DNA of 47,162 bases from Acidobacteriaceae bacterium (lineage in GTDB: Bacteria > Acidobacteriota > Terriglobia > Terriglobales > Acidobacteriaceae). Each line of letters starts with the position of its first letter. Within the stretch, counting starts at the first letter, position 1. The stretch lies in contig PKVW01000041.1 in NCBI GenBank assembly GCA_003131585.1, positions 1 to 47,162 of the forward strand. Reading direction: 5' to 3'. Below the pieces are notes generated by a model. That model did no database searches, was not told the DNA's origin, and worked only from the letters and a program-made list of their open reading frames with translations. This document shows positions 2,319 through 28,240 of the stretch, in pieces. Both the position numbers and the translations under genes were made by a program.

Positions 2319-3020
2319 CTAGTGCACCGACCACTGCGGATCGTCCTCCGGCTTCACGACGTGGCCGTCGCGCATGTGGATCATGCGGTCTCCGTACTTG
2401 GCAGCCTCGGGATTATGCGTGATCATCAGTACTGTCTGTCCCAACTCCTGGTTGGACTGCCGTAACATGCGCAAAACGATGTTCGAGTTCTCCGTGTCGA
2501 GATTTCCGGTGGGCTCGTCGGCCAAAACCACCGCCGGCTTGTTGACCAGGGCGCGAGCCAGGGCCACGCGCTGTTGCTCGCCACCGGAAAGTTCGCTCGG
2601 GCGATGGTTCAGCCGCTTGCTCAGTCCCAATAAATCGCAAATGCGGAGGAAGAATGCGGGATCGCGGTCCCCGTTTCCGGAGATTTCCTGCGCGATGGCT
2701 ATGTTAGAACGCGCGTCGAGCGTGGGCAGCAAGTTGAACTTCTGGAAAACGAATCCGATTTTGCGCTTGCGCATTCGGGTGCGCTCCGCATCGGAGAGCG
2801 CGGCGAAGTCGTCCCCATCCATAATTACCTTGCCGGAATCGGCGCGGGTCAGTCCGCCCAGCAGGTAGAAGAGGGTGGACTTGCCGCTGCCCGAAGGGCC
2901 GACCACGGTGACGAATTCTCCTTTTTGCACGCCAAAGGAGATCCCTCGGAGCGCGGGCACGTCGATCTTTCCCACCCGATAAGTTTTGTGTAAATCAATG
3001 GCCTCGATGAATGCGCCCAT
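2319..3020 (-). CDS. ABC transporter ATP-binding protein (MacB/LolD-like)
   Basis: A 233-residue ATPase subunit with every nucleotide-binding motif: Walker A GPSGSGKS near residue 41, Q-loop VFQKFN, signature LSGGEQQ, Walker B VVLADEP followed by TGNLD, and a switch His in MITHNP. The ADEPTGNLD form and the length are typical of the MacB/LolD/FtsE group, which powers lipoprotein release, macrolide export or cell-division machinery. No permease gene lies beside it, so its partner must be encoded elsewhere. It sits between the tRNA pair and a response regulator, both on the same strand, with no overlap. Confidence 0.9.
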   Translation of the reverse strand: MGAFIEAIDLHKTYRVGKIDVPALRGISFGVQKGEFVTVVGPSGSGKSTLFYLLGGLTRADSGKVIMDGDDFAALSDAERTRMRKRKIGFVFQKFNLLPTLDARSNIAIAQEISGNGDRDPAFFLRICDLLGLSKRLNHRPSELSGGEQQRVALARALVNKPAVVLADEPTGNLDTENSNIVLRMLRQSNQELGQTVLMITHNPEAAKYGDRMIHMRDGHVVKPEDDPQWSVH

Positions 3021-4672: not shown

Positions 4673-4804
4673 GAACTGTCCTAAGTTGTGAAGAGTTGAC
4701 TGCAAGGCGCGTACGTGCCGCCTTGCAAAGAACAACAGATGCATGGCGCCGTTCTTGCGATGCAGGAAAACTCGCGGATAACCGTACCGCTGGCCGTCTC
4801 GCGG

Positions 4805-4833
4805 TTGACAGGGTCAGAGCAGGCTTCTATTCT
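4805..4833 (+). promoter_or_regulatory. Sigma-70-type promoter upstream of peroxiredoxin leader
   Basis: A perfect TTGACA (4805-4810) is separated by 17 bases from TATTCT (4828-4833). The start would be near 4840, about 200 bases before the peroxiredoxin ATG, which leaves room for the structured leader described below. Confidence 0.6.
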
Positions 4834-4878
4834 AATCACGTGTTTTGCCCCTCCAATGTCGGCGGCGCGTGTTGTTCC

Positions 4879-4902
4879 ATGTGTCCGCCGTGGTGTGGGT
4901 AG
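4879..4902 (+). CDS. Possible leader peptide MCPPWCG
   Basis: A seven-codon frame with two Cys and one Trp codon sits in the leader. Its last codons (TGG TGT GGG TAG) overlap the proposed antiterminator arm. There is no good ribosome site before it, so translation is uncertain and this is only a candidate. Confidence 0.2.
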   Translation: MCPPWCG

Positions 4903-4923
4903 GGAGCAAACAAGATTTCTTCC

Positions 4924-4957
4924 AACCCACCCGGCGAAACGGGTGGGTTTCGTTTTT
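4924..4957 (+). terminator. Intrinsic terminator in the peroxiredoxin leader
   Basis: A perfect 10-bp stem, AACCCACCCG with CGGGTGGGTT, closes a 6-base GCGAAA loop and is followed by TCGTTTTT. It lies about 80 bases before the peroxiredoxin start on the same strand. Confidence 0.7.
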
Positions 4958-5038
4958 CATCCGAAGGGTTACTCGAATTTGAATGGCTGGCTAACTGTCG
5001 GAACTTCGAGCGAATTGAAATTCGTTGAGGAGAGAAAT

Positions 5039-5722
5039 ATGAGTACCGCAACCGAAACCCTTAGAATCCCCCGCATCAATGACACCGCCCCCAATTTCAC
5101 GGCTGAAACTACACAGGGCACGATCAATTTTCACGAATGGATCGGTGGCGGATGGGCGATTTTGTTTTCCCACCCGAAAGACTTCACTCCCGTGTGCACC
5201 ACCGAGCTGGGCGCCATGGCAGGCCTGCAGCCCGAGTTCGCCAAGCGCAACACCAAAATTATCGGTCTGAGCGTGGACCCCGTGAGCAGTCACGGCAAGT
5301 GGGCCGTCGATATCGAGGAGACTCAGGGCCACAAAGTAAACTACCCGATGATCGGCGACCCGGAGCTCAAGATTGCCAAGCTCTATGGCATGTTTCCGGC
5401 CGAGAGCGTCAATAGCGCGGAGGGACGCACGGCGGCGGACAATGCCACCGTGCGCACGGTATTTGTGGTCGGTCCGGACAAGAAGATCAAGCTCCAGCTC
5501 AGCTACCCCATGAGCACGGGGCGCAACTTCGACGAAATACTTCGAGTCATCGATTCGATTCAGCTCACGGCCAAACACAAAGTTTCCACGCCGGCGAACT
5601 GGAAGCCGGGCGATGACGTCATCATCAGCGGCAATGTCTCTAATGAAGAGGCGCAGAAACAGTATCCCGGAGGCTGGAAGACGCCGAAGCCGTATATGAG
5701 GATCGTGCCTCAGCCTAAATAG
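5039..5722 (+). CDS. 1-Cys peroxiredoxin (Prx6/AhpC-TSA family), copy 1
   Basis: A 227-residue thiol peroxidase that reduces hydrogen peroxide and organic hydroperoxides in the cytoplasm. The catalytic motif DFTPVCTTE, near residues 43-51, contains the peroxidatic Cys. The C-terminal Prx domain (STPANWKPGDDVII, then GGWKTPKPYMR) matches the Prx6 group. There is no obvious resolving Cys, hence 1-Cys. The ATG at 5039 is chosen because GAGGAG lies just upstream; the frame stays open further upstream but would run through the terminator. A second copy follows 116 bases downstream on the same strand. Confidence 0.92.
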   Translation: MSTATETLRIPRINDTAPNFTAETTQGTINFHEWIGGGWAILFSHPKDFTPVCTTELGAMAGLQPEFAKRNTKIIGLSVDPVSSHGKWAVDIEETQGHKVNYPMIGDPELKIAKLYGMFPAESVNSAEGRTAADNATVRTVFVVGPDKKIKLQLSYPMSTGRNFDEILRVIDSIQLTAKHKVSTPANWKPGDDVIISGNVSNEEAQKQYPGGWKTPKPYMRIVPQPK

Positions 5723-5744
5723 TCAAATCAATGGCGTGAGAGCG

Positions 5745-5792
5745 GCGATCTCCGGAAGCAGCACTCAGCACCTCCCTTTTTCCGGAGATCGC
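5745..5792 (+). repeat. 13-bp perfect inverted repeat between the peroxiredoxin genes
   Basis: GCGATCTCCGGAA (5745-5757) and its complement TTCCGGAGATCGC (5780-5792) can form a strong hairpin with a 22-base loop. No T-run follows, so it could be an mRNA stabiliser, a weak terminator or a protein site. Confidence 0.6.
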
Positions 5793-5824
5793 GGTACTAA
5801 TCGCGGTACTAATCGCGGTACTAC
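5789..5824 (+). repeat. Three tandem 12-base repeats (TCGCGGTACTAA)
   Basis: The unit TCGCGGTACTAA occurs at 5789-5800 and 5801-5812, and with one change at the last base at 5813-5824. It ends 14 bases before the second peroxiredoxin start and overlaps the right arm of the inverted repeat. It could be a regulator site or replication slippage. Confidence 0.75.
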
Positions 5825-5838
5825 GAGAAGAGGGACCA

Positions 5839-6519
5839 ATGGCGACCGAAGTGGTGACCGTTGCTGTACCGAGAATCCCGCGTATTAACGAGCCCGCGCC
5901 GGACTTCGAGGTTACGTCCACGCACGGCCTAATCCGGCTCAGCAACTACACGGGAAAAGGCAAGTGGGTTCTGCTGTTTTCCCATCCCGCCGACTTCACC
6001 CCCGTCTGCACCACGGAATTTGTGGAATTTGCCCGCCACGCTCCGGAATTCGAGAAGCACAATGTACAACTCATCGGCAACTCAGTGGATAGTGTGTATT
6101 CGCACATTGCCTGGGTGCGCAACATCGAAGAGAACTTCAAAGTGAAGGTGACCTTTCCCGTGATCGCCGATCTCGACCAGAGGGTGGCCCGGGCTTTTGG
6201 CATGGTGCACGAAGCGGTCAGCGATACGTCCGCCGTCCGCGCCGTTTTTTTCATTGATCCGAAGCAGACCATTCGTGCGCTGCTGTACTATCCGATGTCG
6301 CTCGGCCGCAACATTGATGAACTGTTGCGGATGGCGGAAGCTCTTCAGACCGCCGATACAAACACCTGCGCGACCCCGGCCAACTGGCGTCCAGGCGACC
6401 CCGTGATTGTGCTCGCGCCCGCAACCCAAGCCGACGCGGAGAAGCGCGCCGAAGGGGGCAAAGGTTTGGAAGTCATCGACTGGTATTTGAGCCGCAAGGA
6501 ACTGAACGGCGCCGACTAG
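5839..6519 (+). CDS. 1-Cys peroxiredoxin, copy 2
   Basis: A 226-residue paralogue of the gene upstream. It shares the start RIPRINxxAPxFE and the active site [10 protein letters not shown], with the peroxidatic Cys near residue 57. The C-terminal dimer domain is present ([14 protein letters not shown]), but the tail differs: [16 protein letters not shown] replaces the GGWKTPKPYMR of copy 1, so the two may differ in substrate or partner. The ribosome site is AGAAGAGGG before ATG 5839. Divergence along the whole length suggests an old duplication. Confidence 0.9.
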
Positions 6520-6642
6520 AAAAGGAGCGAAGGGATTCGCCGGGATCGGGCTTCCGGCCCGGAAAGTTAAAGATCGATCTGGGTCAATCCGTGCGGATCT
6601 GTGCCCGGTTTTTGACTGAGAACGAGAACGAGAATAGCCTTT

Positions 6643-6740
6643 GGAAGCGCATGTGGTCCGGTGATCATCCCGGTCTTCAAAACCGGCGGGCGGCAGGTTT
6701 TCCTGTCGCCGGTGCGTTCGACTCGCACACGCTTCCGCCA
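6643..6740 (+). tRNA. selC: tRNA-Sec (UCA), selenocysteine tRNA
   Basis: A 98-base tRNA with all the unusual tRNA-Sec features. The anticodon loop CTTCAAA carries UCA (6677-6679), which reads UGA. The D stem has about 6 bp with a 4-base CGGT loop. The long variable arm is a 9-bp stem (GGCGGCAGG with CCTGTCGCC) around TTTT. The T stem is 5 bp (GTGCG/CGCAC) with a TTCGACT loop. The acceptor GGAAGCG pairs with CGCTTCC, the eighth position is a C-A mismatch, and the discriminator is G followed by an encoded CCA. It implies that SelA, SelB, SelD and at least one selenoprotein exist elsewhere in the genome. Confidence 0.93.
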
Positions 6741-6818
6741 AACAACAAGATTTCCCGAGAAACGCGAGGCCGCTTCCGGAAGGCCATCTCGTTAAGCCGG
6801 GAGAGGACAAACCTGACT

Positions 6819-7790
6819 ATGAAAATCGCCAAGGACGTCACCGAACTGATCGGCCACACTCCGCTGGTGCGGCTCAACAGAGTCACGGAAGGCTGCGTAG
6901 CCGAGGTCGTGGCCAAACTGGAAAGCCAGAATCCCGTGGGCAGCGTAAAAGACCGTATCGGAGTAAGCATGATCACCGAAGCCGCGCGCGCGGGCAAGAT
7001 TCAGCCGGGAAAGACCGTGCTGATCGAGCCGACGAGCGGCAATACTGGAATCGGTCTGGCTTTTGTGGCTGCCGTCAAAGGCTACAGGCTGATCCTGACC
7101 ATGCCGGAAACCATGAGTATGGAACGGCGTGTCCTGCTGCTGGCTTTCGGCGCGGAAATCGTGCTTACGCCTGGTCCAAAAGGAATGAAGGGGGCCATCG
7201 CCAAGGCGCAAGAGTTGCTGGCGAACACGCCCAATAGCTACATGCTCCAGCAGTTCGACAACGCCGCCAATCCCAAGATTCATTTCGAGACCACGGGCCC
7301 CGAGATTTGGAATGACACCGACGGGCGCGTGGACATCCTGATCTCCGGCGTTGGGACCGGCGGGACCATCACTGGCGTCTGCGAGTACATCAAGCCCAAG
7401 AAGCCCTCGTTCAAGGCCGTCGCCGTCGAGCCGGCGGACAGTGCGGTACTCTCCGGTGGAAAGCCCTCGCCGCACAAAATCCAGGGACTCGGCGCCGGTT
7501 TTGTTCCCAAGATACTGCGCACAGACCTCATCGACGAGGTGATTACGGTGACCAACGATGACGCGATTCGCATGGCGCGACGGCTTCCTCTCGAGGAAGG
7601 TCTTTTCGTGGGGATTTCCTCAGGGGCCGCTGTGGTCGCTGCCCTCCAAGTGGCGCGCCGTCAGGAAAATGCGGGAGATCTGATCGTAGTGATTCTGCCG
7701 TCGTTCGGAGAACGCTACTTGAGCACCATCCTTTTCGAAGAGCTTCGCAGCCGCGCGCAGCAGATTCCTACGTCTTCGCTTCCGGACTGA
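6819..7790 (+). CDS. cysK: Cysteine synthase (O-acetylserine sulfhydrylase)
   Basis: A 323-residue PLP enzyme that makes L-cysteine from O-acetylserine and sulfide in the cytoplasm. The PLP Lys is in NPVGSVKDR near residue 44. TSGNTG (substrate loop), GTGGT (phosphate cup) and GISSGA are all present. The start is the ATG at 6819 ([19 protein letters not shown]), the usual family beginning. A longer open frame upstream would run through the tRNA-Sec gene and is rejected. It lies 78 bases downstream of selC. The C-terminal FGERYLST motif is typical of CysK rather than of cystathionine beta-synthase. Confidence 0.93.
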
Positions 7791-8049: not shown

Positions 8050-10233
8050 ATGAGAAGAAACCTGCAGTGGTTGGGTGTCTCAATTCTCGGAGTGCTAACC
8101 TTATCTCCAGCTTTACTCGGTCAGGCTTCCCCGGGCTCCGAGGCAGCCGTCCCTGTACCCTCCGACTGGAGTCATCACCACCTTATCTTCTCCAGACCCG
8201 CCACCGCGGAACAGGCTAAGCGCGTGCAGCAGGATCCTCGCTATGGACAGCAGCTCTCTCGCCAGTCGCCAGCGAAGATGCCGGAGGCGGAGACGGGTCG
8301 CGCCCCTGCTTCCGCGTTGCGGCTTGATTCAAGCGCCTCGCTTCCCCGCAAGAATCAGAAACTTAAGCGCGACTGGGAGCAGGACATGGGCAGTGGCGCG
8401 ACTGTCGGCGCCGGGAACTATCCCGCAAAGTTCTCGTTTGCAAGTACGAACGCGAACTGTGCCAGTGCGCCTCAGCCCGATTTCGTCGTCTATGGCACCG
8501 GCCTTTTTGGGTCGACCGGGCAAGCCAACATCGTGGCTTATGACAATCTCTATTCCGGCTGCGGCGGTACGGTGCCCACGGTCTACTGGGCCTATAACAC
8601 TGGCGCCCCGGTCCTGAGTTCTCCCGTATTCTCGCGCGACGGTACGCAGGTTGCGTATGTGCAAAGCAATGGATCGGCGCAGGGGATATTGGTCCTGCTG
8701 AAATGGGCCGCTTCTACCACTGACACCATCATTAGCCCAACGACCCTTACGCGGGTGGTTCGCTCTGCGTATCCTAGCTGCATGGCGCCCTGCATGACCA
8801 CGTGGTCCCTCGTAAATTCGGGTGGCATGCCCGACAACAATACCAACTCCTCCGTCTTCTACGACTACACGAACGACACTGCCTACGTGGGGGATGACTC
8901 CGGCTGGCTCCATAAATTCACGCCAGTATTCAATGGGAGCCCCACCGAAGTGACAACGGGAGGCTGGCCTGTGCAGGTGAACCCCGTCAACCCCACTATT
9001 CTCACCAGCCCGGTTCACGATTTTGCTTCGGGGAATGTGTTTGTGGCGGACAAGGGTGGGTTCTTATATCGTGTCGATTCGACGACAGCCGCGGTGACCA
9101 CTTCCGGCCAGTTGGATTTCTCCAGCAAGTTGGACGGTGGCCCCGGCATCGTACAAGGGCCGATCGTCGATTCCACCGGTGGACTGGTGTACGTGTTCGC
9201 GCCGAGCGACGGGAGCGCGTTTTGCAACGCCGGGGCTGCCTGTGCCGGCGTTTACCAGCTCACCACCAGTTTCATTGCCGGCGATTTTGGATCGGAGGCG
9301 GAGGTCGGAAACAGCACCGTTGAACCGGCGCCGCCAAATCCCCTGTACATTGGCGCTTTTGACAGTGCCTACGAAAACTCCGTGGACCCACCCACAGGAA
9401 ACCTTTATGTTTGCGGCAATACCGGAGGACTTCCAACTTTGTACCAAGTCCCAATTACGGCGGGTGCCTTTGCCGGTCCGGCAGGGATATCCATCACGCA
9501 GCTCACGACGCCCTCCGCTACCCCGCCCTGTTCTCCTGTTACGGACGTCTACAACCCTAATGCGATTGCCGGACCGACGGAATGGATCTTTGTCAGCGTG
9601 CAAGACAATGGTCTGAACTCAGGGTGCGGCGGCGGTGGCTGCCTCTTCAATTTTGAGGACCTGGCCTGGCAGCCCTCCACAACTTATGCGGTGGGGCAGG
9701 AGATTCTTGCGCTCAGCCCAGACGATTCCAGGGTGTTCATCCAGGCGGTCATCCAAGCCGGGACTTCGGGAGTGGCGCCGCCCCGTTGGACCGACTCGGA
9801 AGGTGCCATCATAGCGAACGATGGTACCGTTCAGTGGATCAATCAAGGGCCGCCGACGGGTGCCGCACTGGCGGTCTGGCAGGCCAATCAGGTTTTTGTC
9901 CGAACGGATCCTCGGATCGTCGACAGCAATGGAAACGTCGAGGTAGTGACCACCGCAGGCACGACTGGGGCTGTTACGCCGGCTTGGAGCACGGTTCCAG
10001 GCGGGACCACGACCGATGGTACGGTGACATGGACCAATGCCGGTATGCTCGGTAGCTTTGTGCTCCCTTCCGCCGGAGGCACGAGCGGCATTATCGTCGA
10101 TAACACCGTGAGCTCGGGAACGGAACCGGGAGCTTCTCAGGTATATTTCTCCACTCTGAGCGATCAGATTTGTGGTACGTCCGTCACCCCAGGCGGGTGC
10201 GCGGTGCAGGCGTCGCAGTCGGCATTACAGTAG
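8050..10233 (+). CDS. Large secreted protein, first gene of the RiPP-like operon
   Basis: A 727-residue protein with a signal peptide (MRRNLQWLGVSILGVLTLSPALLGQA). The middle (about 130-470) has many short beta-rich, Gly/Asp-rich segments such as VYGTGLFG and YVGDDSGWLHKF, suggesting a beta-propeller or FG-GAP-like fold. Near the C-terminus two similar modules follow each other: WQPSTTYAVGQEI ... GTSGVAPPRW ... DGTVQWINQG, then VWQANQVFV ... GTTGAVTPAW ... DGTVTWTNAG. These resemble small carbohydrate-binding or phage-fibre-type modules. GGGAG precedes the ATG. The stop lies 16 bases before the small peptide gene, so it is probably co-transcribed. Its function is unknown; it may be an outer-surface partner or target of the peptide. 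Confidence 0.75.
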   Translation: MRRNLQWLGVSILGVLTLSPALLGQASPGSEAAVPVPSDWSHHHLIFSRPATAEQAKRVQQDPRYGQQLSRQSPAKMPEAETGRAPASALRLDSSASLPRKNQKLKRDWEQDMGSGATVGAGNYPAKFSFASTNANCASAPQPDFVVYGTGLFGSTGQANIVAYDNLYSGCGGTVPTVYWAYNTGAPVLSSPVFSRDGTQVAYVQSNGSAQGILVLLKWAASTTDTIISPTTLTRVVRSAYPSCMAPCMTTWSLVNSGGMPDNNTNSSVFYDYTNDTAYVGDDSGWLHKFTPVFNGSPTEVTTGGWPVQVNPVNPTILTSPVHDFASGNVFVADKGGFLYRVDSTTAAVTTSGQLDFSSKLDGGPGIVQGPIVDSTGGLVYVFAPSDGSAFCNAGAACAGVYQLTTSFIAGDFGSEAEVGNSTVEPAPPNPLYIGAFDSAYENSVDPPTGNLYVCGNTGGLPTLYQVPITAGAFAGPAGISITQLTTPSATPPCSPVTDVYNPNAIAGPTEWIFVSVQDNGLNSGCGGGGCLFNFEDLAWQPSTTYAVGQEILALSPDDSRVFIQAVIQAGTSGVAPPRWTDSEGAIIANDGTVQWINQGPPTGAALAVWQANQVFVRTDPRIVDSNGNVEVVTTAGTTGAVTPAWSTVPGGTTTDGTVTWTNAGMLGSFVLPSAGGTSGIIVDNTVSSGTEPGASQVYFSTLSDQICGTSVTPGGCAVQASQSALQ

Positions 10234-10249
10234 CGAGGGATAATCATTT

Positions 10250-10420
10250 ATGGCCATGAATCATTCATCCAGTGAAGAGCCGCGTCCGGCGGCAATCGAG
10301 AAGAAGCCTTACGAGAAGCCGGGTTTTCGCCACGAGCAGGTCTTCGTGACCTCGGCTCTGTCGTGCGGCAAAATCACCAGCACCCAAAGCGGCTGCGGAC
10401 TGAACACGAAGGTCTCGTGA
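10250..10420 (+). CDS. Putative RiPP precursor peptide, 56 residues
   Basis: Reading from ATG 10250 (GAGGGA about 9 bases upstream) gives a 56-residue peptide. The N-terminal half is hydrophilic. The middle KKPYEKPGF (18-26) contains a YxxP motif like the one that PqqD-type recognition elements bind in lasso leaders. The C-terminal part, from about SALSCGK (35-41) to LNTKVS, has Cys39 and Cys49, several Ser/Thr, and ends in Ser. It is followed at once by a peptidase, an HPrK-like kinase, a PqqD-like protein and a radical SAM/SPASM enzyme. The stop TGA overlaps the GTG of the peptidase gene (GTGA). The leader/core boundary is unknown; a core beginning near residue 36-39 is my inference. Confidence 0.72.
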   Translation: MAMNHSSSEEPRPAAIEKKPYEKPGFRHEQVFVTSALSCGKITSTQSGCGLNTKVS

Positions 10421-10944
10421 GGCAGGCCGACAGCGCCCCGGCGGATACTGCCGCCGCTTTAAAGACGAGGTGCGAGCTTGCTGCGGAGGTTCTGCGCACA
10501 TTCGGCAGCCTTCGTTTTGCAGCCACAGGTTGGAGCATGCTTCCGTCGGTTTGGCCCGGGGACACGCTTGTGGTCGAGCGCGTCAGCCCGGATCAAGTGC
10601 ACGTCGGAGACATGGTGCTGGTCGGACGCGACGGCAGGCTCTGTGCTCATCGCATTGTCTCCACGGCAGAAAGTTCTGGGGATCCGCAGTGGATCACTCA
10701 CTGGGTAACCCAGGGCGATGCCATGCTCGCGCCCGATCGACCCGTAATCGAGAGTGAGTTGTTGGGCCGGGTCGATTACCTGATCCGGGCGGGAAGATTA
10801 ATCGCTGTGCGTGCGGAGTTAAGTAGGTTCGAGCGGCTGACAGCCAAGATTGTCCGGCGCTCCGTCCCTGCGGCGCGCGCCCTGGTTTATCTGCACCGCA
10901 TAGCACAAACTCCAGAGAAATCGGCTCTTCCATGCCAGGGCTAG
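10417..10944 (+). CDS. S26/S24-type serine peptidase of the RiPP-like operon
   Basis: A 175-residue protein related to type I signal peptidases of the S26 family. The nucleophile motif is TGWSMLPSVWPGD (Ser40), followed by GDMVLV and AHRI (His78). The His in this place fits the Ser-His form found in SipW/ER-type enzymes rather than the Ser-Lys form. VTQGDAMLAPD and LLGRVDYLIRAG match the later conserved boxes. No membrane anchor is visible. The GTG at 10417 is chosen because it overlaps the precursor stop (GTGA) and has GAAGG just upstream; the longer frame from 10363 would read through the precursor gene. It may cut the leader from the modified peptide (inferred). Confidence 0.75.
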   Translation: MRQADSAPADTAAALKTRCELAAEVLRTFGSLRFAATGWSMLPSVWPGDTLVVERVSPDQVHVGDMVLVGRDGRLCAHRIVSTAESSGDPQWITHWVTQGDAMLAPDRPVIESELLGRVDYLIRAGRLIAVRAELSRFERLTAKIVRRSVPAARALVYLHRIAQTPEKSALPCQG

Positions 10945-11747
10945 CTACACAAGTCGAGTGTTACAGCGTGGTGATTGCGATCGGGGGTATCCCCGTCAGG
11001 GTGAACACGACCGACGCGGATTTCCTCGAGATGCTGCAGGAGCGCTACGCCGGCTTCTTAAGCGCGGAAGCGCGCGCTGAATTCGATTTCGATGTGGACC
11101 TGGTGCCGCCCGCGTTCGCCAATCCGGACGCGGATGTGAGTGTCACCCACCGCTCCGGCCGGTGGTTTATGGAGCGGGGCGATTTTCGTGCCGAGTGGGA
11201 GCCCGCCGCGCGCCGCGGCAGCATTCGCCAGTCCGCGAACCCATACTCGATCGACGCCGTTCTACGCATCGTGCATACGCTGGTGCTGGCCAGGCAGGGC
11301 GGATTTCTTTTGCACTCTGCCAGCGCCATTCGCAACGGAAAAGCTCTCCTGTTCGCGGGTGTCTCGGGAGCCGGGAAGACGACGATTTCACGGCTCGCTC
11401 CCGTGGATGCCACTCTTCTCACCGATGAGATCTCCTACGTTCGCAAAGTGGGCGAGGACTACGTTGCGTGCGGCACGCCCTTCACCGGAGAACTGGCGAA
11501 GCTGGGTGAGAATACGTCGGCGCCGGTGGCCGCACTTTATCTGCTGGCTCAAGGTCCCGAGAATCGCATCGACCCGGTGGCCGTGGCCGATGCCGGGCGC
11601 GAGCTTCTGGCCAATATGCTTTTCTTCGCCGAGGATCAGGAATTGGTTCACTGGGCATTTCAGGCTGCGTGCGACTTCGTACATCGCGTGCCGGTTTACA
11701 GGCTTACGTTTATGCCGGATGCGCGCGTTTGGCAGATGATCGGATAA
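10932..11747 (+). CDS. HPr-kinase-like protein of the RiPP-like operon
   Basis: A 271-residue protein with the C-terminal fold of HPr kinase/phosphorylase. The P-loop is GVSGAGKTT (143-151), preceded by LLHSASA with a His at 128 and followed by LLTDE (Asp165), matching the catalytic elements of HprK-like kinases. Known relatives in lasso-peptide clusters of the paeninodin type phosphorylate the C-terminal Ser of the precursor, and the precursor here also ends in Ser. The start overlaps the end of the peptidase gene by 13 bases, and the next gene begins 2 bases after its stop. It may instead have a recognition or coupling role without kinase activity. Confidence 0.75.
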   Translation: MPGLATQVECYSVVIAIGGIPVRVNTTDADFLEMLQERYAGFLSAEARAEFDFDVDLVPPAFANPDADVSVTHRSGRWFMERGDFRAEWEPAARRGSIRQSANPYSIDAVLRIVHTLVLARQGGFLLHSASAIRNGKALLFAGVSGAGKTTISRLAPVDATLLTDEISYVRKVGEDYVACGTPFTGELAKLGENTSAPVAALYLLAQGPENRIDPVAVADAGRELLANMLFFAEDQELVHWAFQAACDFVHRVPVYRLTFMPDARVWQMIG

Positions 11748-11749
11748 AG

Positions 11750-12076
11750 ATGAATAAGAAAATCTACGTCGCACGAAGTCCGCGGATTGCAGCCCGCATG
11801 CTGGGTGAGGAAATGCTGGTCATGTCGGGTCAGGGTTCGACACTGTTCACGCTGAACCCGACCGCGACCATTCTCTGGCAAGCCGCCGACGGCGCCACGT
11901 CACTCGATGAAATCGTCGAGCGCCGCATCTGCTCCGAGTTTGAAGTGAAGCCCGAGGAAGCGATGCGGGATGCCGAGGCGCTGGCCGAGGATTTGGCCAA
12001 GCATGGCATTCTGCTGATCTCAGAGCAGCCGATCGCGGGGCCGGACTCGCCTGTGCAGGAGCAGCAACAACCATGA
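11750..12076 (+). CDS. PqqD-like RiPP recognition element
   Basis: A 108-residue PqqD-family protein. ARSPRIAARMLGEEMLVMSG, then TLFTLNPTATILWQAADGATSLDEIVE, is the usual beta-hairpin and winged-helix pattern with the LNPTAxxLW signature near 35-44. PqqD-type domains bind the leader of a precursor peptide and present it to the modifying enzyme, here most likely the radical SAM protein. The true start is ATG 11750, two bases after the upstream stop; the frame upstream overlaps the kinase. The stop overlaps the next ATG (ATGA), which suggests coupled translation. The tail after about 90 is Gln/Pro rich. Confidence 0.85.
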   Translation: MNKKIYVARSPRIAARMLGEEMLVMSGQGSTLFTLNPTATILWQAADGATSLDEIVERRICSEFEVKPEEAMRDAEALAEDLAKHGILLISEQPIAGPDSPVQEQQQP

Positions 12077-13224
12077 GCGCCTTGATGCAGGAAATGGGCG
12101 ACCGGGCGTTGCGGCTGGGCGTTCCCTTCAGCGTTCAGCTCGACCTCACCTACCGCTGCAACGAGCAGTGCGTTCACTGCTACCTCGATCACGACGACCA
12201 CGGCGAGATGACCACGGCAGAAATCAAGCATCTGCTCAAGGAGATGGCCGAAGCTGGCGTCTTTATCCTCACCTTGAGCGGCGGCGAGATTTTCATGCGC
12301 AAGGACTTCTTTGAGATTTTGGAATGGGCGCGCGCGCTTACGTTCTGCATCAAACTCAAGACCAATGCAGTGCTGATCCGCGAAGCCCAGGCGGCTCGCC
12401 TCCGCGATCTCGGCGTGGAGTCGATTCAGGTCAGCATCTATTCGCACCGGCCGGAAGTGCACGACGCGATTACCAAAGTCCCAGGCTCGCTGCGGCGGTC
12501 GATCAATGCCATCCGCTTTCTCAAATCACAAGGCCTGAAAGTCATCATGGCCAATGTGCTGATGACGGAAAACATGCAGGACTATCACGGCGTCCGGGCG
12601 CTGGCAGAAGAACTTGGCGCCGACTACACCCTGGACCCGACGGTCACGCCGAAAATGGATGGCGACCGCTCGATCCTGGATTTGAACGCCGGCGAGTCCG
12701 CTCTGCGCCGCTTGTTCCGGGACGAAACTTTCGTGGGCAACGTCGATGAGTTCTGCGCGCCGCCGCCCGCGCCGGACGAAGACAGCATGGAGTCTTTGCC
12801 GTGCAGCGCCGGCCACACCGCCTGCTACGTTTCTCCCTACGGCGAATTTTATCCTTGCGTGCAATTCCCCTTGTCCTGCGGCAACGTCCGGCAGCAGCGC
12901 TTCATCGACATCTGGCGCGACTCCGAGCAATTGAAAGAAGTCCGCTCGATCCGCCTGCGCGATCTGACGAGTTGCTCCCAGTGCGCACACGGCTCGAGTT
13001 GTACTCGTTGCCCCGGCCTGGCATTCATGGAAGGGAATATGCGCGGTCCTTCCACGGCGGACTGTGAGAAATCCTTCGCCCGAACGGGGGTGCCCTCAGC
13101 CAATTTGCTGGCGTCGAAGGAGAAGATCTCCGCGTCCCGTCTGGTGCAGATCCAGATCGTACCGGCGATTACAGGCAGCAGACTGTCCGGCATTGGGATG
13201 CCCGCAAGTGCTGTAGCCTCATAG
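12073..13224 (+). CDS. Radical SAM/SPASM peptide-modifying enzyme
   Basis: A 383-residue enzyme. The radical SAM cluster motif CNEQCVHC (Cys29, 33, 36) and the SAM-binding SGGE (69-72) are clear. The C-terminal half has a SPASM domain: Cys244-x12-Gly257-x4-Cys262, then Cys301, 304, 310 and 313, and Cys331, enough for two auxiliary iron-sulfur clusters. SPASM enzymes install thioether (sactionine, ranthipeptide) or carbon-carbon bonds in peptides, or oxidise side chains. With two Cys in the nearby precursor, thioether formation is a reasonable guess. The ATG overlaps the PqqD stop. About 50 residues after the last Cys match nothing I recognise. Confidence 0.9.
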   Translation: MSALMQEMGDRALRLGVPFSVQLDLTYRCNEQCVHCYLDHDDHGEMTTAEIKHLLKEMAEAGVFILTLSGGEIFMRKDFFEILEWARALTFCIKLKTNAVLIREAQAARLRDLGVESIQVSIYSHRPEVHDAITKVPGSLRRSINAIRFLKSQGLKVIMANVLMTENMQDYHGVRALAEELGADYTLDPTVTPKMDGDRSILDLNAGESALRRLFRDETFVGNVDEFCAPPPAPDEDSMESLPCSAGHTACYVSPYGEFYPCVQFPLSCGNVRQQRFIDIWRDSEQLKEVRSIRLRDLTSCSQCAHGSSCTRCPGLAFMEGNMRGPSTADCEKSFARTGVPSANLLASKEKISASRLVQIQIVPAITGSRLSGIGMPASAVAS

Positions 13225-14892: not shown

Positions 14893-15408
14893 ATGGCCCT
14901 GGTGGTTCGTCCCTCACGGATTCATGCGGCTGGTGTGTTCACCACCACGCCCGTTCGCAAACGCGCCCGCATCGTCGAATATGCCGGTCCGCGCATCACT
15001 CCAGAGGAGGCCAACCGGTTGTACGATGGCGCTCCCCGTACTTATCTCTATGGTCTGGAGGACGGCAAGACCGTCATCGATGGCGAAGGGTTGGGCGCCT
15101 ACTTGAACCATTCCTGCGATCCCAACTGTGAGATCGACGAAATCAAGAACCGTGCGTGGATCTTCGCTCTCCGCGACATTGCTGCCGGCGAGGAGCTACT
15201 TTGGGATTACAACCTCTACGACGATGACGACCCCGCGCCCTGCCACTGCGGCTCGCCCAAGTGCCGCGGCACCATGTATTCCCGCGAATGGATGGCCAAG
15301 TTGAGGCGCAAGGCTCGCAAGAAGAAGTCAAGGAAGCAAGCCGGTCAAGAGTCCAGGAGCGACGGCGGGAATCGAAAGAACGCCCGAAAACCCCGGCGCG
15401 CTGCGTGA
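14893..15408 (+). CDS. SET-domain protein lysine methyltransferase
   Basis: A 171-residue SET protein. VVRPSRIHAAGVFTTTPV begins the SET fold, VEYAGPRIT follows, and the active site is GLGAYLNHSCDPNCE (about 76-90) with the pseudoknot motif NHSCDPNC. A catalytic Tyr candidate is in ELLWDYNLYD. After it comes a post-SET zinc motif, CHCGSPKCRG (about 118-127). The last 40 residues are strongly basic (KLRRKARKKKSRKQ). In bacteria such enzymes methylate lysines of ribosomal, DNA-binding or effector proteins; the target here is unknown. The ribosome site is poor, so the start is less certain than the frame. Confidence 0.85.
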   Translation: MALVVRPSRIHAAGVFTTTPVRKRARIVEYAGPRITPEEANRLYDGAPRTYLYGLEDGKTVIDGEGLGAYLNHSCDPNCEIDEIKNRAWIFALRDIAAGEELLWDYNLYDDDDPAPCHCGSPKCRGTMYSREWMAKLRRKARKKKSRKQAGQESRSDGGNRKNARKPRRAA

Positions 15409-26850: not shown

Positions 26851-27035
26851 TTGAAACGTGAAACTTTTCTTTCGTGCCAAGCTCTATAATTGAAGAAGGT
26901 TTCCGACCGCCCTAGCCTGCGGGCATACCCCGGCTGCGGCGGCGAGGGAGAGACGCGGGCGAGGGCGCCCGCGCCACATTTCCCGAGGGTGCAGGCGGAA
27001 ACGCCCGTGCCTCCCGCGCTCTGCGAAGAGCGCAT

Positions 27036-27085
27036 TGGAAAGGAAACAGCCGCCGGGATGTTCCCGCGTGCGTGTCTCCTTTCCA
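27036..27085 (+). promoter_or_regulatory. Structured element upstream of moaA
   Basis: TGGAAAGGA (27036-27044) is perfectly complementary to TCCTTTCCA (27077-27085). Inside, CGGGA and TCCCG pair around TGT. This two-level hairpin lies 100 bases before moaA. The Moco riboswitch controls moa operons in other bacteria, but I cannot match its consensus here. The rest of the 334-base gap holds a GCGGGCG/CGCCCGC hairpin (about 26957-26973) and the repeat tract that follows. Confidence 0.35.
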
Positions 27086-27098
27086 GAACCAGTCGTTC

Positions 27099-27184
27099 GT
27101 CGATGGTCGTTAGTCGTTGGCCAGCCTCGCGACGAACCGGTTAACGACGAACGGCTAACGACGAACGACAAACGACGAACGACC
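27099..27184. repeat. AACGACGAACG-type low-complexity tract before moaA
   Basis: The left half has GTCGTTCGTCG, GTCGTTAGTCGTTGG; the right half has repeated AACGACGAACGGCTAACGACGA and CAAACGACGAACGAC units in the opposite sense, so the tract can fold on itself. It ends directly at the moaA start and leaves no recognisable ribosome site. Confidence 0.6.
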
Positions 27185-28240
27185 GTGCCCCTCACCGACA
27201 AATTCGGCCGCGCCATCACGGACCTGCGGATCTCCATCACAGACCGCTGCAACTACAAGTGTGTCTACTGCCGCACCGGAAATGAAGGCGCGCTGTACGG
27301 CGACCTGCCCTTCGCCGACTATCTGCGCATGGCGCGCGTGCTGGTTGGGATGGGCATCACGAAGGTTCGACTTACCGGTGGCGAGCCGTTACTACGCAAG
27401 GGCGCGGTCGAGTTCGTCCGCGACCTTGCGCAACTCCGTCCTCAGGGGCTAAAGCCCTTATTTGCTAGGGCCTCCAACGGCAAGGCTGAAGCCGTGCCCT
27501 TCCCAAACCAAAATGCCGACCCCCTCGACATTGCACTAACCACCAACGGCCATCTCCTCGCCGATCTCGCGCAGCCGCTCAAAGACGCCGGCCTCACCCG
27601 CGTCACCGTCTCCATGGACGCCGTCGATCCCGACCGCTTCGCCCGCATCACCCGCGTCCCCAATGGATACGACCACGTCCTCGCCGGCATTCGCGCCGCC
27701 CGCCGCGCCGGACTGCGGCCGCTGAAGGTGAACTGCGTTCTGATGCGCGGCTTCAACGAGGATCAAATCATTCCCTTCGGCATGTTCGCGCGCGAAGAAG
27801 GTGTAACGGTGCGCTTCATCGAATTCATGCCGCTCGAAGAAGGCCGCACCTGGTCTCCCACGACGGTGGTCACACTCGACGAAATCCTGGCCCGCATGGC
27901 CGAGTACCGGCCGCTAGTCGAAATTCCGCACGCGCGCTCGGAAACCGCCCGCCGCTACCGCTTCGACGACGGCGTCGGCGAAATCGGCATCATCGCCCCC
28001 GTCTCCCATCCCTTCTGCGGACACTGCAGCCGCATCCGCATCACCAGCGACGGTAAAATCCGCACCTGCCTGTTCTCGGTCTGGGACCACGACCTTCACG
28101 CCCAAATGCGCCGCGGCGCCTCGGACGAAGAGTTGGAAGATTTCATCCGCGGAGTCGTGGCGAAAAAAGAAGAACGCCACCACATCGGCGAACCGGATTT
28201 CGTGCCAGCATCGAGAACGATGGTGCATATCGGGGGATGA
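27185..28240 (+). CDS. moaA: GTP 3',8-cyclase (molybdenum cofactor synthesis)
   Basis: A 351-residue radical SAM enzyme that starts molybdopterin synthesis from GTP. The N-terminal cluster motif is CNYKCVYC (Cys22, 26, 29), with LTGGEPLLRK for SAM. The C-terminal cluster is in PFCGHCSRIRITSDGKIRTCLFS, and the protein ends in the catalytic GG. The start is GTG 27185 (VPLTDKFGRAITDLRIS). Residues 86-108 (GLKPLFARASNGKAEAVPF and flanks) are an insertion coded by a 69-base intergenic-type repeat, between the FVRDL helix and the DIALTTNG strand. The frame stays open through the insertion. Confidence 0.9.
   Translation: MPLTDKFGRAITDLRISITDRCNYKCVYCRTGNEGALYGDLPFADYLRMARVLVGMGITKVRLTGGEPLLRKGAVEFVRDLAQLRPQGLKPLFARASNGKAEAVPFPNQNADPLDIALTTNGHLLADLAQPLKDAGLTRVTVSMDAVDPDRFARITRVPNGYDHVLAGIRAARRAGLRPLKVNCVLMRGFNEDQIIPFGMFAREEGVTVRFIEFMPLEEGRTWSPTTVVTLDEILARMAEYRPLVEIPHARSETARRYRFDDGVGEIGIIAPVSHPFCGHCSRIRITSDGKIRTCLFSVWDHDLHAQMRRGASDEELEDFIRGVVAKKEERHHIGEPDFVPASRTMVHIGG
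27440..27508 (+). repeat. 69-base repeat inserted in frame within moaA
   Basis: It begins CCTCAGGGGCTAAAGCCC and ends GTGCCCTTCCCAAAC. It matches, in opposite orientation, the intergenic copy at 22559-22627. Its length (69, divisible by 3) and lack of a stop leave the moaA frame intact. Confidence 0.85.

Follow-up and report, generated by a model that had tools for sequence, protein, structure and literature searches.

Which product do six neighbouring genes make in a locus of the Acidobacteriaceae? The question arises at positions 8050-13224 of contig PKVW01000041.1 (assembly GCA_003131585.1, Acidobacteriaceae bacterium). The window, that is, the whole stretch of 47,162 nucleotides analysed, carries there the genes for a secreted beta-propeller, a small peptide, an S26 peptidase, an HPrK-like kinase, a PqqD-type protein and a radical SAM/SPASM enzyme. 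The locus belongs to a real, conserved, phylum-wide system resembling those for ribosomally synthesized and post-translationally modified peptides (RiPPs). It is of the kind with a RiPP recognition element (RRE), an HPrK-like kinase and a signal peptidase, with radical chemistry added. We think it quite likely, judging from sequence, that a RiPP pathway uses these enzymes on this peptide. The fuller proposal, two modifying enzymes acting in the order given below, seems likely. The peptides are probably cross-linked by the radical enzyme, phosphorylated on the last residue and released by cleavage, and they probably have a large secreted protein as partner. A previous sequence-only reading had proposed a RiPP system here. 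Its peptide and enzymes are supported, but the propeller as an apparent member and the terminal serine as the predicted kinase target were missing from it.

Conservation of the precursor peptide

We fetched 80 loci with the radical SAM protein as query, and the peptide was then sought in them by pattern search. Close relatives of the window are metagenome-assembled genomes (MAGs) named Acidobacteriaceae and Candidatus Sulfotelmatobacter; locus L076 is from a cultured carrier, Granulicella mallensis X5P3. The peptide is present in 68 of the 80 loci and in the window; 67 of the 68 copies are intact and end in serine, and that of L084 is frame-broken. Among the remaining 12 loci, the contig ends within L035 and L073, L111 is frame-broken, and L068 is cut and has a C-terminal half ending in serine. 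The other eight have enzymes and no peptide that we could find. Differences in the leader (68 stretches) are concentrated at third codon positions (27102, against 9123 and 8138). Because of this pattern and of its presence in 68 loci and the window, the peptide is more than a chance reading frame.

Alignment A1 holds 66 of the 69 peptide rows (L084, being frame-broken, L071 and L091 were left out). Five residues are invariant in it: Tyr8, Pro11, Phe19, Cys26 and Cys36. Position 20 is Glu in 43 rows and Val in 23, and position 21 is Thr in 61 and Val or Ile in five. The motif F[EV][TVI] is thus found in 66 of 66 rows, as FET in 40 and FVT in 21. Between the two cysteines, only the Gly and Lys beside the first one reach 90% conservation. 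The precursor has no family in NCBIfam or Pfam; the hits were weak, to DUF5972 (E 0.083) and to one NCBIfam model (0.15).

The enzymes accompany the peptide. Of the 80 loci, 77 have the kinase, 75 the S26 peptidase, 79 the PqqD-type protein and all 80 the radical SAM enzyme, which is the query protein itself. Of the 250 genomes searched in the bacterial family, peptide and kinase each occur in 49. Both are present in 47, the peptide only in two, the kinase only in two and neither in 199 (Fisher p 7e-46, uncorrected for relatedness). The two peptide-only genomes, G839 and G842, are weak matches (E 1.5e-4 and 8.2e-4). The sequence-only reading had made conservation of the small peptide in relatives one test of its proposal. 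The peptide is clearly conserved, and it co-occurs with the kinase. At the gene level, a conserved peptide with a putative leader beside a recognition protein and enzymes is what generally marks a RiPP locus, and this locus shows that arrangement. If the pathway is as proposed, the motif YxxP...F[E/V]T...C...C...S-COOH could serve to find many clusters in the Acidobacteriota of soils, which are poorly cultured.

In the genome of the window, a second peptide match (G000:C51:49113-49241) is weak, lies within a frame of 119 amino acids without a leader and was taken as chance. The cluster of L053 (3392-5705) is apparently decayed. It consists of propeller fragments and a shortened kinase, and neither the peptide nor the S26 peptidase was found in it.

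Terminal serine and the kinase

All 66 rows of A1 end in serine. It is the only serine or threonine of the core conserved at 90% or more. Over all 69 rows a terminal serine is present in 68, encoded by TCG (20), TCA (19), TCC (19) or TCT (10), and all three stop codons follow it. The core spans 17-20 residues from the first cysteine to the end (67 rows, with L084 and L034 left out). Since codons, stops and core lengths vary, the serine is held at the protein level. A by-product of the GTGA or ATGA overlap with the next gene was ruled out, because 27 of the 69 rows stop with TAG or TAA. Nevertheless, every one of these codons is TCN, and AGY is never used. Since selection for serine as such would permit either kind, common descent has a share as well.

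The kinase scores best with the family ScmC, at 44.9 bits, below the cut-off of 125. A sequence search of the PDB with it gave nothing significant. Its fold is that of PEPCK/HPrK; the Foldseek matches include HPrK/P, and the 50 VIA-align rows listed are all PEPCK. The motifs GxSGxGKTT and DE are conserved. Because of these catalytic residues and the fold, we accept the assignment despite the low score.

HPrK-like kinases of lasso peptide clusters phosphorylate a C-terminal serine (PMC8498205). For this reason, and given the conservation of the serine, the kinase is predicted to phosphorylate the last residue of the peptide. We regard this activity as fairly probable. If true, it gives a testable rule for these HPrK-like kinases, namely that their target is the last residue.

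Leader, peptidase and radical SAM enzyme

The closest described system is that of the linear polyphosphorylated peptides (LPPs), RiPPs of Bacillota described by Popov et al. 2026 (PMC13381572). Its set comprises the SipW-like peptidase LppS (S29, H68, D93), the recognition protein LppB, the HprK-like kinase LppK, a nucleoside triphosphate (NTP) transferase and an MsbA-like exporter. The LPP leader reads YxxPxVLxHQxIxFETxxS. LppS cleaves it after F-E-T, and LppK was shown to phosphorylate Ser 3 of the core (PMC13381572). Both systems share a SipW/archaeal-type peptidase with Ser/His/Asp, a discrete recognition protein and an HprK-like kinase, and in the leader the YxxP and, before the cut, F-E-T (here F-E/V-T).

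The motif [Y/W]xxP is a described site bound by such recognition proteins (PMC13381572, PMC12710340). The PqqD-type protein of the window matches PF05402 with 53.5 bits (cut-off 23.4). On the other hand, the S26 peptidase stays below the cut-offs, with 21.2 against 23.3 bits for Peptidase_S24 and 31.9 against 51.85 (E 1.1e-7) for the signal peptidase TIGR02228. The assignment was accepted despite these scores because the catalytic residues S58, H96 and D119 (numbering of 193 amino acids from 10363) are each conserved in at least 95% of 75 rows. The protein has no strong hydrophobic segment and is probably soluble. We also considered a cleavage before the first cysteine, where A-L-S/A/T would follow the -3/-1 rule of signal peptidases. 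In relatives, however, position -1 is occupied by Arg, Gln or Phe. This site was dropped because of these residues and of the experimental F-E-T site in LPP.

The radical SAM enzyme reaches 77.3 bits for Radical_SAM (cut-off 29.5) and 40.2 bits for SPASM (cut-off 21.5). Its three radical SAM cysteines and eight further ones are conserved in at least 95% of 81 rows. The solved structure closest to it by sequence is SkfB (E 9.4e-15), followed by cytosylglucuronate decarboxylase and PqqE (about 7e-7). SkfB is a sactipeptide enzyme that forms thioethers. The enzyme matches many NCBIfam families, with none of the 25 listed above its cut-off, so that a thioether at the cysteines is a guess at the bond it makes. 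We put radical chemistry at the cysteines at even chances.

Proposed pathway

In the pathway that we infer, the PqqD-type protein would bind the YxxP leader and present the peptide to the radical SAM/SPASM enzyme. This enzyme would then introduce a cross-link in the core, likeliest at one or both of the invariant cysteines, as a thioether. Next, the HPrK-like kinase would phosphorylate the C-terminal serine. The S26 peptidase may cut after F-E/V-T and free a core of about 22 residues. Finally, the product would leave the cell, in one branch through an ABC-2 exporter, and act with a large secreted partner, here the beta-propeller. What we observed directly comprises the genes and how they are conserved, the motifs and catalytic residues, the co-occurrence, and the fact that peptide and propeller genes are paired. 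Every chemical step, the order, the cleavage site, the export and the role of the partner belong to the proposal. If true, it would unite radical SAM chemistry and HPrK-type phosphorylation, two RiPP chemistries that we did not find together in print.

Secreted partners and distant relatives

The secreted beta-propeller is apparently part of the system. Its model resembles propellers such as YxaL and BamB, which we take to be PQQ-repeat-like. Pairs of peptide and propeller genes also occur without enzymes nearby. Because precursors adjoin propeller genes in this way, the enzymes are suggested to work in trans on such precursors. An ABC-2 permease family is present in 23 of the 80 loci, and one branch has the ABC-2 exporter and no propeller.

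The system extends beyond the family of the window. A profile search with A1 matched 13 of 396 genomes of the phylum, seven of them outside the family. In three more distant loci, two found by the peptide (L129, L130) and one by the radical SAM protein (L142), the same five genes are arranged differently. Among the distant precursors, many are shorter and follow the pattern MKKPYEKPxIxxxExxEARAxxCxK...C...GPxxS. Alignment A4 consists of eight of them, and its search (E up to 0.001, so that a few matches may be chance) matched 55 of the 396 genomes, 50 outside the family. The 53 distant precursors, from 48 loci, end in Ser (49), Thr (2), Phe (1) or Gln (1). Six of these loci have the kinase, PqqD-type protein, radical SAM enzyme and S26 peptidase, 10 have the first three, 14 have other subsets and 18 have none nearby. 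A kinase match (E 1e-5 or better, some covering only part of the profile) was found in 21 of 22 searched genomes with distant precursors. The lone exception, G169, carries the precursor ending in Phe. Six more genomes have kinase matches (G093, G131, G151, G259, G305 and G329).

Five of the fetched loci are titled Pseudomonadota (L068, L081, L082, L100 and L102). They sit among acidobacterial rows in the radical SAM tree, from which no rooting was read, the outgroup branches being very long and OUT_L141 falling inside. These rows may reflect horizontal transfer or, for MAGs, misbinning. Outside the phylum, the peptide is present in one of 369 genomes of the class of Thermomonas, which is Thermomonas itself.

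In other families of Acidobacteriota, short precursors adjoin a gene for a large secreted C25 (gingipain-like) peptidase. This protein family is present in 25 loci, among them L130, L135, L215, L219, L220, L222, L223, L229, L232, L235 and L238, and seven of seven sampled proteins match C25 in Pfam. Other short precursors stand directly after a protein of about 400-540 amino acids, with no enzymes nearby (L131 6532-8333, L134 4735-6311, L216, L218, L221 and L224). Two of them lie in tandem in L131. This partner gave no Pfam match in the two proteins scanned (L131, L134). In L137 (8128-10133), the precursor lies behind an ABC-2 exporter pair without enzymes in 16 kb, and the best kinase match of its genome is on another contig.

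We tentatively propose, at somewhat less than even chances, a phylum-wide RiPP class of Acidobacteriota. Its peptides would be radical-modified and phosphorylated on the last residue by central, trans-acting enzymes. Each precursor gene would travel with its own secreted partner, a propeller in the family of the window and a C25 peptidase elsewhere. The peptide might be a ligand, inhibitor or activator of the partner and not a free antibiotic. The roles of the LPPs are likewise given as unknown (PMC13381572), and the function of such peptides could be approached here through the secreted propellers or C25 peptidases with which the precursors are paired.

Comparison with described systems and alternative explanations

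The sequence-only reading had stated that no described class has exactly this set of genes. This stands in the open-access literature, in which, judged mainly by titles and the openings of abstracts, we found no RiPP pathway that combines a radical SAM enzyme with an HPrK-like kinase. However, the LPP system shares the peptidase type, the recognition protein, the kinase and the leader motif, and lacks a radical SAM enzyme. Neither "radical SAM" nor "Acidobact" occurs in the main text of PMC13381572. Of the two, only the system studied here has the radical SAM/SPASM enzyme, the two invariant cysteines, the C-terminal serine and the secreted propeller, and it occurs in Acidobacteriota, with a few Pseudomonadota, instead of Bacillota.

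Could it nevertheless be an outlying LPP branch whose real chemistry is phosphorylation and cleavage, the radical SAM enzyme being a later, secondary addition? The recognition protein, kinase, YxxP and F-E-T in common would fit, as would the shared SipW-type peptidase with its similar Ser/His/Asp spacing (38 and 23 here, 39 and 25 in PMC13381572). Yet the phosphorylatable serine at core position 3 of the LPPs is replaced here, if the cut follows F-E/V-T, by Leu in 65 of 66 rows and Val in one. Moreover, radical SAM genes stand in 29 of the 48 distant precursor loci (L142 among them was fetched by the radical SAM protein), and the LPPs are called restricted to Bacillota (PMC13381572). No NTP transferase or MsbA-type exporter was found among the 26 window proteins scanned, a comparison limited by the partly identified neighbour clusters of the 80 loci; the ABC ATPase at 2319-3020 is on the other strand, 5 kb away. 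We consider this explanation unlikely.

Paeninodin-like lasso clusters share the HPrK-like kinase, a discrete PqqD-type protein, the [Y/W]xxP leader and the C-terminal serine target (PMC8498205). Here a radical SAM enzyme and an S26 peptidase are present instead, and the cyclase is absent from the cluster. In line with the sequence-only reading, there is no Asn-synthetase-like cyclase among the 26 window proteins scanned, a genome-wide search not having been made. The lasso leader peptidase B2 (PF13471) has no match in the genome of the window and was found in one of 10 genomes searched; a lasso pathway was rejected for lack of it. The SynChlorMet cassette (NCBIfam TIGR04248-TIGR04251) gives the best named matches of the kinase (ScmC) and the PqqD-type protein (ScmD), and it likewise includes a radical SAM/SPASM enzyme. 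By its family names it has two radical SAM proteins (ScmE, ScmF), against one here. It was discarded with all scores below the cut-offs (ScmC 44.9 of 125, ScmD 27.1 of 100 and ScmE 104.4 of 400 bits). Sactipeptides and ranthipeptides have in common a radical SAM/SPASM enzyme, with SkfB as the closest structure, and a core containing cysteines. In contrast, our system has only two conserved cysteines, with a thioether predicted, and a discrete recognition protein, a kinase and an S26 peptidase.

Biosynthesis of pyrroloquinoline quinone (PQQ) itself was rejected, as PqqD (15.4 of 46 bits) and PqqE (100.4 of 381) stay below the family cut-offs. A related idea is a redox cofactor carved from the peptide, as in PQQ or mycofactocin, which the propeller would use as quinoproteins use PQQ. 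It draws on the PqqD-type protein, on MftC and AhbD among the best family scores of the SPASM enzyme, and on the likeness of the propeller to YxaL and BamB. But the scores are low (PqqE 100 against 381 bits, MftC 135 against 265), the core consensus has no Tyr, one branch has the exporter and no propeller, and a terminal serine and a kinase would make little sense. PqqA, in comparison, has a Tyr in its core. A cofactor is therefore highly improbable. The two cysteines could also form a structural disulfide or a metal site, with the radical SAM enzyme acting on another substrate, for example the propeller. Their invariance, with so little conserved between them, would allow it, and the peptide and propeller pairs without nearby enzymes suggest that these two proteins belong together. 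Nevertheless, the known action of PqqD-type proteins is on peptides, and it is this peptide that carries the invariant YxxP (the propeller was not examined for the motif). We find this alternative very unlikely.

Several observations count against the RiPP pathway proposed above. No peptide was found in eight loci with enzymes (L038, L053, L066, L074, L081, L092, L108 and L109), and in L084 and L111 its frame is broken. In genomes G023 and G832 the kinase occurs and no peptide was matched. The radical SAM enzyme reaches none of the listed NCBIfam cut-offs, and a disulfide or metal site could equally account for the two cysteines as such. The spacing from Y to F is 13 in the LPP consensus and 11 here. 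The LPP kinase targets Ser 3 of the core and not the last residue, so targets shift between families (PMC13381572). In the distant genomes, kinase matches covering part of the profile may include other HPrK-like proteins, and the precursor ending in Gln (L243/G236) is in a genome with kinase matches.

Gene order and neighbouring genes

The genome of the window has 3.9 Mb in 75 contigs, and the window is contig C6. The six genes are co-directional and tightly packed. In order, their junctions consist of a 16-base gap between propeller and peptide, a GTGA overlap, a 13-base overlap, a 2-base gap and an ATGA overlap. The gene calls and junctions of the sequence-only reading were borne out when we read the sequence.

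Table 1. Coordinates of the cluster and of the predicted features of the precursor in the window
Feature	Position	Strand	Description
Propeller gene	8050-10233	+	Secreted partner, 727 aa; N-terminal hydrophobic segment, beta-propeller body, C-terminus ...AVQASQSALQ
Precursor peptide gene	10250-10420	+	56 aa; second in-frame ATG at 10256
YxxP leader motif (YEKP)	10310-10321	+	Predicted contact of the PqqD-type protein; Y and P in 66/66
F-V-T motif	10343-10351	+	Predicted leader cleavage after Thr at 10349-10351
Predicted core, 22 aa	10352-10417	+	Two invariant Cys codons, 10364-10366 and 10394-10396
C-terminal Ser codon	10415-10417	+	Predicted phosphorylation site
S26 peptidase, SipW/archaeal type	10417-10944	+	175 aa from GTG; predicted leader peptidase
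HPrK-like kinase	10932-11747	+	271 aa; GxSGxGKTT, DE
PqqD-type RiPP recognition element	11750-12076	+	108 aa; PF05402, 3.2e-14
Radical SAM/SPASM enzyme	12073-13224	+	383 aa; CxxxCxxC at 29-36; other conserved Cys 228, 244, 262, 301, 304, 310, 313, 331

A second radical SAM protein of the window, of MoaA type (27035-28240; PF06463, PF04055), is apparently unrelated to the cluster. A small bacterial SET-domain protein (PF00856) lies at 14893-15408. Just upstream of the cluster, at 4715-7790, there are two peroxiredoxin-like proteins and one cysteine-synthase-like protein, named by eye from their translations.

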